From positions 1 to 60,952 of the forward strand of contig MFPL01000012.1 of NCBI GenBank assembly GCA_001784155.1: DNA of 60,952 bases, given 5' to 3'. Of the stretch, positions 32,386-48,649 are shown one piece after another. Position 1 is the first letter of the stretch. The number at the start of each line of letters is the position of its first letter. The position numbers were made by a program, and so were the translations under genes. The DNA comes from Candidatus Levybacteria bacterium RIFCSPLOWO2_12_FULL_41_12. GTDB lineage: Bacteria; Patescibacteriota; Microgenomatia; Levybacterales; UBA12049. Below the pieces are notes generated by a model. That model was not told the origin of the DNA. It worked only from the letters and a program-made list of their open reading frames with translations, and ran no database searches.

Positions 32386-33453
32386 ATGCTTCATAGGCCT
32401 TTTTTTGATCCCCATCTGTCCTACGAAGAAAATTATAAAAAAGGACCATTCGGAGCATTTGCAGACAAAAAAGTTTTCAAAGACAAAGGAAAGCCAAGCT
32501 ATAATTTTTTGGGTGAAAAGGTATTTCTTCCACTTGGAATTCCCGCAGGGCCTCTCTTAAACTCGAAATTTACAAATGCAGCTTTGGATAAGGGATTTGA
32601 TATCGTTACTTATAAAACAGTAAGAAGTAAGAAATATTCTTCTCATTCATGGCCAAATGTTTTGTCGGTTAAAGTGCATGGGAAATTAACAGAGAAAAAA
32701 GCAGAGCGAGGGGTTATTGGCCACCATGGTTATAGTCATCCGTTATCTATTACCAATTCATTTGGTGTTCCATCCTTTGATCCTGATGTTTGGCAAAAAG
32801 ATTTAGCTAAGGCTGTAAGACACGCCCGAAGAGGACAAGTTGTTGTAGGAAGTTTTCAGGGAACAGTAAACAGTCAGCATGATAATGAAAAGTATCTTAA
32901 AGATTTTATTCTGACTGCCAGACTTATGAAAGAAACAGGAGTAAAAATTATGGAAGTGAATCTTTCGTGTCCAAACGAAGGTCACGGTAATTTACTCTGC
33001 TTCGATATAGAAAGAGCAAAGTTTATCGTGTATGGAATAAAGAATAAAATAGGCAATATTCCATTGATCGTGAAGATCTCTTATTTTCATAATGAAGAAA
33101 GACTTAGTAAGTTCGTTTACGAGCTAGGCAGCATAGTAGATGGCATAGCGGCAATAAATACATTACCCGCCAAAGTAATTGATGAAAAAAATCACCAAGC
33201 TCTTCTTGGAGAGGGAAGAATAAAAAGTGGGATTTGTGGTAGTGCTATACAATGGGCAGGACTTGAAATGGTAAAAAGACTTAAGAAATTGCGTGAAGAA
33301 TTGGGTTTGTCATTTGCCATTATCGGAGTGGGTGGAGTAACTATCCCAGAGGATTACTTCAAATACAAAAAAGCAGGAGCGGATGCTGTGATGTCTGCGA
33401 CAGGTGCCATGTGGAACCCCTTTTTAGCTCAAGAGATAAAAAACCTCCTCTAG
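32386..33453 (+). CDS. pyrD: dihydroorotate dehydrogenase-like protein
   Basis: PLGIPAGPLLNSKF, MEVNLSCPNEGHGN, IIGVGGVTIPEDYFKYKKAGADAVMSATGAMWNP. Confidence 0.85.
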   Translation: MLHRPFFDPHLSYEENYKKGPFGAFADKKVFKDKGKPSYNFLGEKVFLPLGIPAGPLLNSKFTNAALDKGFDIVTYKTVRSKKYSSHSWPNVLSVKVHGKLTEKKAERGVIGHHGYSHPLSITNSFGVPSFDPDVWQKDLAKAVRHARRGQVVVGSFQGTVNSQHDNEKYLKDFILTARLMKETGVKIMEVNLSCPNEGHGNLLCFDIERAKFIVYGIKNKIGNIPLIVKISYFHNEERLSKFVYELGSIVDGIAAINTLPAKVIDEKNHQALLGEGRIKSGICGSAIQWAGLEMVKRLKKLREELGLSFAIIGVGGVTIPEDYFKYKKAGADAVMSATGAMWNPFLAQEIKNLL

Positions 33454-46565: not shown

Positions 46566-47687
46566 TCAAGAAGCGTTAGGAATATTAGATTTGATTTTTT
46601 CCCACGGGAAAATCTCTCTTCCAAAATGGCCATATGTTGAGGTCTTAAGATAGATTGGTCGTCTTAAGCTTAATCCGTCAATAATTCCTGCTACAGAAGT
46701 GTCTAGAATTTTAGACATAAAGCTTTTGATTACTGCATCGGATTTTTTTGCAGTCCCAAAGGTTTCTACGTCTTGCATTAGGGGTTTTTTTGCACCAATA
46801 AAATAGGCGAGTCTGACTTCTGCTTTGTCTGCGAGTTTCTCGGCAACTATATTTTTTGCAATAAATCTTGCGGCGTATGCTCCTGATCGATCAACTTTTG
46901 TAGGGTCTTTCCCGGAGAACGCGCCTCCACCTACCCTCGAATACCCGCCATACGTGTCTACTACAATTTTTCTTCCGGTAAGTCCTGAGTCAGACGCAGG
47001 ACCGGGGTTATGCCAAACGCCGGTTCCATTAACTATCAATTCCTTTTTGCTTATTTTAAAACCGTATTCTCCTAAGATCTCTGTGACAACCTTTTTATAA
47101 ATATCTTCGGCGACTTCGCTGAGTTTTACTTTTTTATCATGGGGGACTGCTACTACTACATGGGATACTTTATACGGCCTTCCGTTTTTATATTCTACTG
47201 TGGCTTGAGTTTTACCATCGGGTAAAAGATATAATAGGTCTTTTTTTACTGCATCCAGCTTTTCTGATAAGCCATGAGCCAAAGTTATAGGAAGAGGCAT
47301 ATAGCTTTCTGTTTCTCGGCATGCAAAACCAAACATCATTCCCTGATCACCTGCGCCCTCAGGCTTCACGCCTTTTGCAATCTCAGGGGACTGTTCGTGG
47401 ATAAAGACCTGTATGAGGGATTTGTCTGAGAAATTAAACGATGGATGGGTATATCCAAGTTCCCTTATCCTTTCGCGGGCAATTTTTTTGTAATCGAGTT
47501 TTACTTTCGTTGTGACTTCTCCGGCAATTACTACCATGTTGAATCCTGCGAGAGTCTCGACTGCAACCCTTCCAAATTTATCTTGCTTTAGTACCTCATC
47601 CAATATGGCATCGCTTATGGAATCGCAAATTTTGTCGGGGTGTCCTGCGCAAACTGACTCTGAAGTAAAAAAATAATTTTTGCCCAT
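46566..47687 (-). CDS. metK: S-adenosylmethionine synthetase
   Basis: MGKNYFFTSESVCAGHPDKICDSISDAILDE; GAGDQGMMFGFACRET; in-frame upstream ATG at 47696. Confidence 0.96.
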   Translation of the reverse strand: MGKNYFFTSESVCAGHPDKICDSISDAILDEVLKQDKFGRVAVETLAGFNMVVIAGEVTTKVKLDYKKIARERIRELGYTHPSFNFSDKSLIQVFIHEQSPEIAKGVKPEGAGDQGMMFGFACRETESYMPLPITLAHGLSEKLDAVKKDLLYLLPDGKTQATVEYKNGRPYKVSHVVVAVPHDKKVKLSEVAEDIYKKVVTEILGEYGFKISKKELIVNGTGVWHNPGPASDSGLTGRKIVVDTYGGYSRVGGGAFSGKDPTKVDRSGAYAARFIAKNIVAEKLADKAEVRLAYFIGAKKPLMQDVETFGTAKKSDAVIKSFMSKILDTSVAGIIDGLSLRRPIYLKTSTYGHFGREIFPWEKIKSNIPNAS

Positions 47688-47692
47688 AGGCC

Positions 47693-47770
47693 GCATCTCG
47701 TGAGACGAATGGCACCGCGGTCTTTTTATCGACTCGGTTGCCGGATGGATGTATCCATCGCTCTTGATGC
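47693..47770 (-). ncRNA. SAM-I/IV-clan riboswitch aptamer, minimal form
   Basis: GCATCAAGAGCGATGGATACATCCATCCGGCAACCGAGTCGATAAAAAGACCGCGGTGCCATTCGTCTCACGAGATGC: AUCAAGAG, CGGCAACC, GGUGCCA and GAGAU core plus P1-P4 helices; directly upstream of metK. Confidence 0.85.
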
Positions 47771-47814
47771 TTTAACATAGCCTATCATAAGGGTAAAAAG
47801 CTTGTCAATAAAGT

Positions 47815-47843
47815 TTGACAGGAATTAAAAGCTGGAGTATAAC
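47815..47843 (+). promoter_or_regulatory. near-consensus promoter TTGACA-17-TATAAC
   Basis: TTGACA 47815-47820, TATAAC 47838-47843; divergent from metK. Confidence 0.8.
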
Positions 47844-47851
47844 GGAGTAAA

Positions 47852-48010
47852 ATGAAAAAGCTTTCAGCTTCTGCAAAGCATTATAGTCAGGGCGGTCTCC
47901 TTTTTTGGCAAAAGGGTTACAGTAGAGACGGAAAAATGGTGAAGCCTCATTTTAAGACAAAACCCGATAATAACGCCTCCAATAATCGCAAACACCTTTT
48001 GGGTTACTAG
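47852..48010 (+). CDS. 52-aa basic small protein (not in ORF track)
   Basis: MKKLSASAKHYSQGGLLFWQKGYSRDGKMVKPHFKTKPDNNASNNRKHLLGY*, promoter ends 8 nt before the ATG. Confidence 0.7.
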   Translation: MKKLSASAKHYSQGGLLFWQKGYSRDGKMVKPHFKTKPDNNASNNRKHLLGY

Positions 48011-48043
48011 CTTGACAGAATTCTGTAAACTGGTTTAAAGGAA

Positions 48044-48649
48044 TTAGCCCGAGAAGGTGAGGCGCTTGTAGATTTTTCGGGTTAACTCCACATCTCTTTC
48101 GCAATATTCACAAATCTCTTTAATGCGTCCGTCTTCAAAGGCCTTAGCGACATTTTTACCCGTTATGTCTCCTTCTTTTGAGGAAGGCAGTCCTAATGCT
48201 TTTGCTAAGGTATCTAGTGAAACAAAAGTATTTCCCCATTTGTTCCATTCTTTCATTACGTCAAAAATCGGTTCTCTTCTGTACCTCGCGAAATTGAGAT
48301 CTATACTAGGTTTTACTCCTAGAACTACAGACCTTTGATATATGAAGCGGAGATCAAAATCCATTACATTAAAACCTATGAAAAGCGTCGCATCTTTTGC
48401 CACATCCCAGAAGTCTTCAACTATCTTTTTCTCGTCCCCGAAAAAAGTCGTGGTTTTCCCGTCATTTATCGCATAAGAAATACAGGCAATTCTGCCAAAC
48501 GCTCCGTCAAATGAGGTTTGTAAAACGTATTCCTCAAAAGTCCCAGGCTTTTTGCCGTCGTTAATAGCTCTGTCATAAACGTCTTTCAATACTGGATGTT
48601 TTTCTTTCTCAACAGGAATTGTCTCGATGTCTAAAAAAAGTTTGTTCAT
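48044..48649 (-). CDS. PolB-type DEDD 3'-5' exonuclease (RNase H fold)
   Basis: LFLDIETIP, FIGFNVMDFDLRFIYQRS, SLDTLAKALGL, YCERDVELTRKIY. Confidence 0.85.
   Translation of the reverse strand: MNKLFLDIETIPVEKEKHPVLKDVYDRAINDGKKPGTFEEYVLQTSFDGAFGRIACISYAINDGKTTTFFGDEKKIVEDFWDVAKDATLFIGFNVMDFDLRFIYQRSVVLGVKPSIDLNFARYRREPIFDVMKEWNKWGNTFVSLDTLAKALGLPSSKEGDITGKNVAKAFEDGRIKEICEYCERDVELTRKIYKRLTFSG

Follow-up and report, generated by a model that had tools for sequence, protein, structure and literature searches.

How a riboswitch might act on a gene whose reading frame opens inside the aptamer itself is the question raised by a metK leader on the minus strand of the stretch of DNA analysed here (60,952 nucleotides; hereafter, the window). 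The gene, located at 46566..47687 on the minus strand, encodes a methionine adenosyltransferase of 373 amino acids (376 if translation starts at 47696), the enzyme that makes S-adenosylmethionine (SAM). The product scored 447 bits with TIGR01034 (cut-off 309) and contains three S-AdoMet synthetase Pfam domains. Its nearest named relatives, from Candidatus Daviesbacteria, are 69-71% identical. The window belongs to an ultrasmall, uncultured Patescibacterium.

Identification of a SAM-I/IV aptamer upstream of metK

A sequence-only reading of this locus had proposed a SAM-clan aptamer upstream of metK, with Rfam as the check. When the whole window was searched with cmscan, a significant covariance-model match to the SAM-I/IV riboswitch (RF01725) was found on the minus strand at 47775-47666, adjoining the TIGR01034 gene, with 56.7 bits against a gathering threshold of 41.1 (E 1.1e-6), and the proposal is thereby upheld. 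Scanning a 301-nt stretch alone gave the same match with an E-value of 5.3e-9 and one other clan match, which RF01725 outscored. The match spans model positions 1-99, which is the full model. The metK leader is the only RF01725 copy in the 853-kb genome, and its score for this model is the highest among the 374 genomes of the class. An exact match to the 5' part of the aptamer RNA was not found in IMG/VR.

Helices P1, P2, P3 and P4, as named in the sequence-only reading, are all present in the sequence and in the minimum free energy (MFE) structure from ViennaRNA, and the aptamer fold is more stable than those of dinucleotide shuffles (z = -2.5). All coordinates are on the minus strand. The 5' strand of P1, GCAUC (47766..47770), was identified from the RF01725 alignment, the MFE structure and both-side changes in relatives; the 3' strand, GAUGC (47693..47697), was identified from the sequence, the same alignment and the open reading frame (ORF), and holds an AUG (47696-47694) in the metK frame. 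P2 (47744..47759), which appears in the MFE structure and covaries, consists of six base pairs between GAUGGA (47759-47754) and UCCAUC (47749-47744) with a UACA tetraloop. P3 (47711..47742), placed by the RF01725 alignment, comprises the conserved core CAACC/GGUGCC, an inner GUC/GAC and L3, GAUAAAAA (47730-47723), and P4 (47698..47708) is formed in the MFE structure by UCGU (47708-47705) and ACGA (47701-47698) around CUC.

The architecture of these helices was then compared with the families of the clan. The kink-turn and PK-1 of SAM-I (RF00162) are missing, as P2 in the MFE structure has six continuous pairs and a four-nucleotide loop, with the internal loop, the kink-turn and the PK-1 loop strand all absent. 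SAM-IV (RF00634) has PK-1, a split P2 and no P4 (PMC6890682), whereas the MFE structure has P4 and a simple P2, without PK-1; what the window shares with SAM-IV is a P5 and PK-2 subdomain after P1, the PK-2 being a candidate. As in SAM-I/IV (PMC2864571, PMC6890682), the window has the core with P1 to P4, a P2 without internal loop, kink-turn or PK-1, a P4 between P3 and the 3' strand of P1, and a P5 that lies 3' of P1. The 'miniature' P2 of the sequence-only reading is thus correctly described, with its 6 bp, its tetraloop and no kink-turn or PK-1, but it is not novel, as a small P2 of this kind is a known hallmark that defines the SAM-I/IV family (PMC2864571, PMC6890682). A spermidine-sensing SAM-I variant (PMC10853860) was also considered and was set aside because the core in the window matches the SAM-I/IV consensus.

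The probable start codon in the P5 hairpin

The RF01725 model places a hairpin, P5, directly 3' of P1, followed by a tail. This hairpin had been overlooked in the sequence-only reading. In the RF01725 alignment, P5 (47682..47691, minus strand) is formed by GCC (47691-47689) and GGC (47684-47682) around the loop UAUG (47688-47685), and the MFE structure of a truncated RNA and covariation in relatives also point to it. The loop holds the likeliest metK start codon, the AUG at 47685..47687 (minus strand), five nucleotides 3' of P1, and the 3' strand is codon 2 (GGC). The N-terminal domain of MetK begins at residue 4 when counted from this AUG, and the start is therefore either 47687 or 47696. Given this and the placement of the AUG in relatives, 47687 is the most likely start. 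The AUG in the 3' strand of P1, which had been singled out previously, is indeed in frame with metK (ORF 46566-47696), but it belongs to the RF01725 consensus agAUGcGG and is found as well in relatives whose start lies elsewhere; taken alone, it is therefore no special signal. The key element is P5, whose loop carries the start codon, rather than the AUG in P1.

Because the start codon lies inside the aptamer fold, SAM binding probably blocks translation directly. The suggestion that aptamer and expression platform are one, with the start region hidden in the fold, thus stands as the most likely reading, and we infer with reasonable confidence that the RNA is a SAM-I/IV feedback OFF switch that binds SAM and acts on metK translation by direct occlusion of the start codon. 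The transcript would begin at about P1. At high SAM, the ligand would bind the P1/P3 core and lock P1 and the P5/PK-2 subdomain, and in this locked fold both the AUG in the P5 loop and the in-frame AUG at 47696 in P1 would be unusable. At low SAM, P1 and P5 would breathe open and the ribosome would use the AUG without a Shine-Dalgarno (SD) sequence. In their 2014 study of the SAM-I/IV structure, Trausch et al. reportedly described how SAM stabilises a pseudoknot belonging to the regulatory switch. Thermodynamic folding speaks against so simple a picture: in the absence of ligand the region stays closed, with a cost of 14.4 kcal/mol for opening -15..+15 and of about 4 (4.0) kcal/mol for breaking P1 alone. 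If P1 is held open, the AUG region is predicted to pair downstream and is not freed; no clean ON fold is therefore visible.

Expression platforms of related metK leaders

The gene was found in 163 of the 374 genomes of the class and in 43 of the 73 genomes of the family, and approximately 130 metK leaders were read in related Patescibacteria. The resulting counts are approximate because P5 was parsed in part automatically, and several loci (L001, L002, L006, L012, L018, L023, L115, L160 and L247) were set by hand or omitted. This sorting resulted in about 52 leaders in which the aptamer is followed by an intrinsic terminator before the AUG, with a U tract that often reaches the AUG; about 30 in which the AUG lies at most 14 nt after P5, several of them with GGAGG as the 3' strand of P5; 15 genomes (families f1, f4, f7 and f8) in which the AUG is embedded in P5 or P1; and about 25 leaders with no recognisable aptamer. 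The embedded AUG lies in P5 in 13 genomes (G000, G180, G139, G149, G232, G294, G002, G234, G354, G375, G376, G393 and G343) and in P1 in G132 and G101, where it is the only possible start. Some embedded genomes, such as G101 and G149, have a longer, SAM-I-like P2. In G139 and G180 (L019 and L011), the AUG in P1 opens an ORF of four codons whose UGA overlaps the metK AUG (AUGA), an arrangement that could allow termination-reinitiation. In other families (L239, L242, L243, L229, L237, L226 and L230), the SD sequence of metK, GGAGG or AAAGG, is the 3' strand of P5 and stands directly before the AUG; GGAGG at this position is an ordinary SD sequence hidden in P5. SAM-clan aptamers with terminators also occur in the class upstream of genes other than metK (L015, L017, L021, L026, L144 and L152).

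The frequency of terminators among these leaders raises the possibility that metK in the window is instead controlled by transcription attenuation, through an unrecognised terminator or a Rho or RNA-stability site, as in approximately 52 related metK leaders, that of the sister genome G053 among them, this aptamer is followed by an intrinsic terminator. We consider this unlikely. In agreement with the sequence-only reading, a scan of 47500-48100 detected no terminator-like site, and the 14 other embedded genomes are likewise without one. In addition, there is no room for a terminator ahead of the ORF because metK begins inside the aptamer. With terminators in those relatives and none in the embedded set, the embedded subset therefore represents a different platform.

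Signals for transcription and translation

A -35-like TTGACA (47803..47808, minus strand), similar hexamers of which occur in relatives, is separated by an 18-nt spacer from a weak -10-like TAGGCT (47779..47784, minus strand). TTGACA-like boxes peak 29-34 nt 5' of P1 in 88 related leaders, the distance in the window being 32 nt, and TAGGCT is located 8 nt 5' of P1, the region in which relatives most often have a -10-like box. The TTGACA-18-TAGGCT promoter proposed earlier is thus present and its placement is backed by relatives, but the -10 box has only three of six consensus matches and was missed by a consensus scan. Based on the position of the TTGACA-like peak, transcription probably starts at about the first base of P1.

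The motifs AGGA, GGAG and GAGG are absent 5' of the metK AUG. SD motifs and -10 boxes were counted throughout the window and, for relatives, in stretches of 20 kb. SD-like motifs precede 3 of the 46 ATG-start genes of the window, compared to 9% for random sequence, and are not enriched. A near-consensus -10 box (TATAAT, 5-9 nt 5' of the ATG) was found for 9 of the 46 genes, compared to 2% at random (for example, at 32386, 31649, 17336 and 30288). TATAAT at the ATG combined with few SD motifs is a signature of widespread leaderless transcripts. The scarcity of SD motifs and the leaderless signals extend to many relatives with every platform architecture. Judged by sequence, the class seems to make frequent use of SD-independent starts; by themselves, these do not predict which platform metK uses. 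A scenario in which embedding of the AUG followed a genome-wide loss of SD sequences was unsupported, as SD and leaderless signals are similar across the three architectures. The anti-SD sequence CACCTCC was not found in the 16S rRNA locus, nor in the genome by one strict pattern. The 16S rRNA of this genome (L256 3020-3107, G000:C10) is normal up to GTACACAC and then diverges, possibly reflecting an insertion, divergence or the end of the assembly.

These counts bear on whether a ribosome-binding site, rather than the start codon, is what the fold conceals. The purines of P4 and the 3' strand of P1 (ACGAGAU) might constitute a weak site masked by P4-P1, the AUG in P5 then being secondary and the switch an ordinary case of the direct translation attenuation described for SAM-I. 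A GAG lies 9 nt before the AUG at 47687, a ribosome-binding site in the 3' strand of P1 has been reported for SAM-I (PMC2258182), and other families in the class use GGAGG as the 3' strand of P5. However, the -20..-4 stretch is predicted to pair only weakly with an anti-SD sequence (-3.0 kcal/mol) and SD motifs in the window do not exceed chance, and we regard SD sequestration as improbable.

Covariation of P5 and candidate PK-2 pairing within the coding sequence

In an alignment of 13 of the 15 embedded genomes, RNAalifold recovered P1, P2, part of P3 and, unaided, P5. Pairs 2 and 5 of P1 are changed on both sides in relatives, P2 also covaries, and the core columns of P3 are invariant across the 13 relatives. 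The covariation that the sequence-only reading had named as a check is therefore observed in P1 and P2, and also in P5, which that reading lacked and whose three pairs are changed on both sides in 3, 6 and 2 sequences. Codon 2 differs across the embedded set (GGC, ACA, GAC, GGA, GCA, AGC or AAA), and the 5' strand of P5 compensates. In the embedded set, P5-plus-AAA hairpins occur much more often than shuffling of the tails produces them (0/2000). The P5 of the window, with only 3 bp, is by itself no better than chance (525/5000 shuffles), and in a longer RNA the MFE structure gives its strands other partners.

The potential tail of PK-2, the partner for L3, corresponds to metK codons 3-7 and is thus inside the ORF. 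Complementarity suggests a candidate 3' strand UUAU (47673..47676, minus strand) in codons 4-5, with AUAA (47729-47726) as partner, or alternatively UUUUUUUA (47673-47666) with UAAAAAGA (47728-47721) on the same strand. The candidates consist of A and U only and are unconvincing, and for want of support PK-2 is not accepted as an established element of the window. Across the short-P2 set, the L3 of a sequence is more complementary to the tail of that sequence than to tails re-dealt from the others (0/500, uncorrected for kinship), with pairs such as AAGCUU/AAGCUU, GAGUAUU/AAUACUU, AAACAC/GUGUUU and UAAUUU/AAAUUA. For the embedded subset, complementarity reaches significance only when a tail of 16 nt is allowed (5/2000; 628/2000 at 9 nt).

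The weakness of PK-2 and P5 in the window when taken alone, the lack of a predicted ON fold and the reduced genome (853 kb) would all fit a vestigial aptamer that ceased to regulate when its terminator disappeared and that overlaps the start codon by an accident of genome compaction. This explanation appears very improbable, as the core is intact and scores best in the class, and compensatory changes keep P5 paired within the coding sequence across the embedded set.

Evolution of the platform

On a MetK tree of 54 sequences, whose bootstrap values had not entirely settled, the AUG-in-P5 label requires eight changes, at least four of them on branches with good support; the sister of the window on this tree, G053, has a terminator after its aptamer. 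These repeated changes indicate that the same aptamer has been re-coupled repeatedly. In one further genome, G097 (L131), the metK AUG lies inside a predicted PK-2 helix, CAUAG/CUAUG. We lean towards the view that, in a class with often leaderless and SD-independent initiation, SAM-clan riboswitches have repeatedly exchanged terminator control for concealment of the start codon in P1, P5 or, as in G097, the PK-2 helix, with the first metK codons drawn into the ligand-stabilised aptamer and co-evolving with it.

Comparison with known riboswitches

In direct translation attenuation, the ribosome-binding site is buried in the aptamer, including SAM-I riboswitches that carry it in the 3' strand of P1 (PMC2258182). 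The window resembles these SAM-I examples in that an expression signal lies on the 3' side of P1 with no separate platform, the start being within 15 nt of the end of the aptamer core and no terminator present. It differs in that no SD sequence is buried in the aptamer; the start codon is hidden instead, and the aptamer is of the SAM-I/IV type without kink-turn or PK-1. In the RF01725 consensus itself, P5 is followed on its 3' side by an SD-like aggag, whereas in the window there is no SD sequence, the start codon is in P5 and the PK-2 territory is in the ORF. Direct occlusion is recognised as a group of riboswitches that comprises SAM-II/V, SAM-III, SAM-SAH and preQ1-I/II (PMC10907184). As in that group, the aptamer would be the expression platform and the ligand would hide the translation start region; unlike its members, which embed the ribosome-binding site, the window has another fold and embeds the start codon and early codons. 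Direct occlusion is therefore already known, and what appears new is an SD-free version that places the start codon and first codons within a SAM-clan aptamer and that recurs in one bacterial class. A text search of the literature retrieved no start codon overlapping an aptamer, which does not establish absence, the main SAM-I/IV paper being outside that search.

The metK leader hints at a way in which translation can come under riboswitch control when no SD sequence exists to hide. Within one gene family, a single type of aptamer is joined to a terminator, to an SD sequence or to the start codon, a natural series in which the evolution of expression platforms is testable. For the Patescibacteria, a largely unstudied group, direct occlusion of the start codon would in addition represent a mechanism of regulation by RNA; the use of riboswitches to control gene expression in these bacteria, as a tool, has been proposed (PMC11665869).
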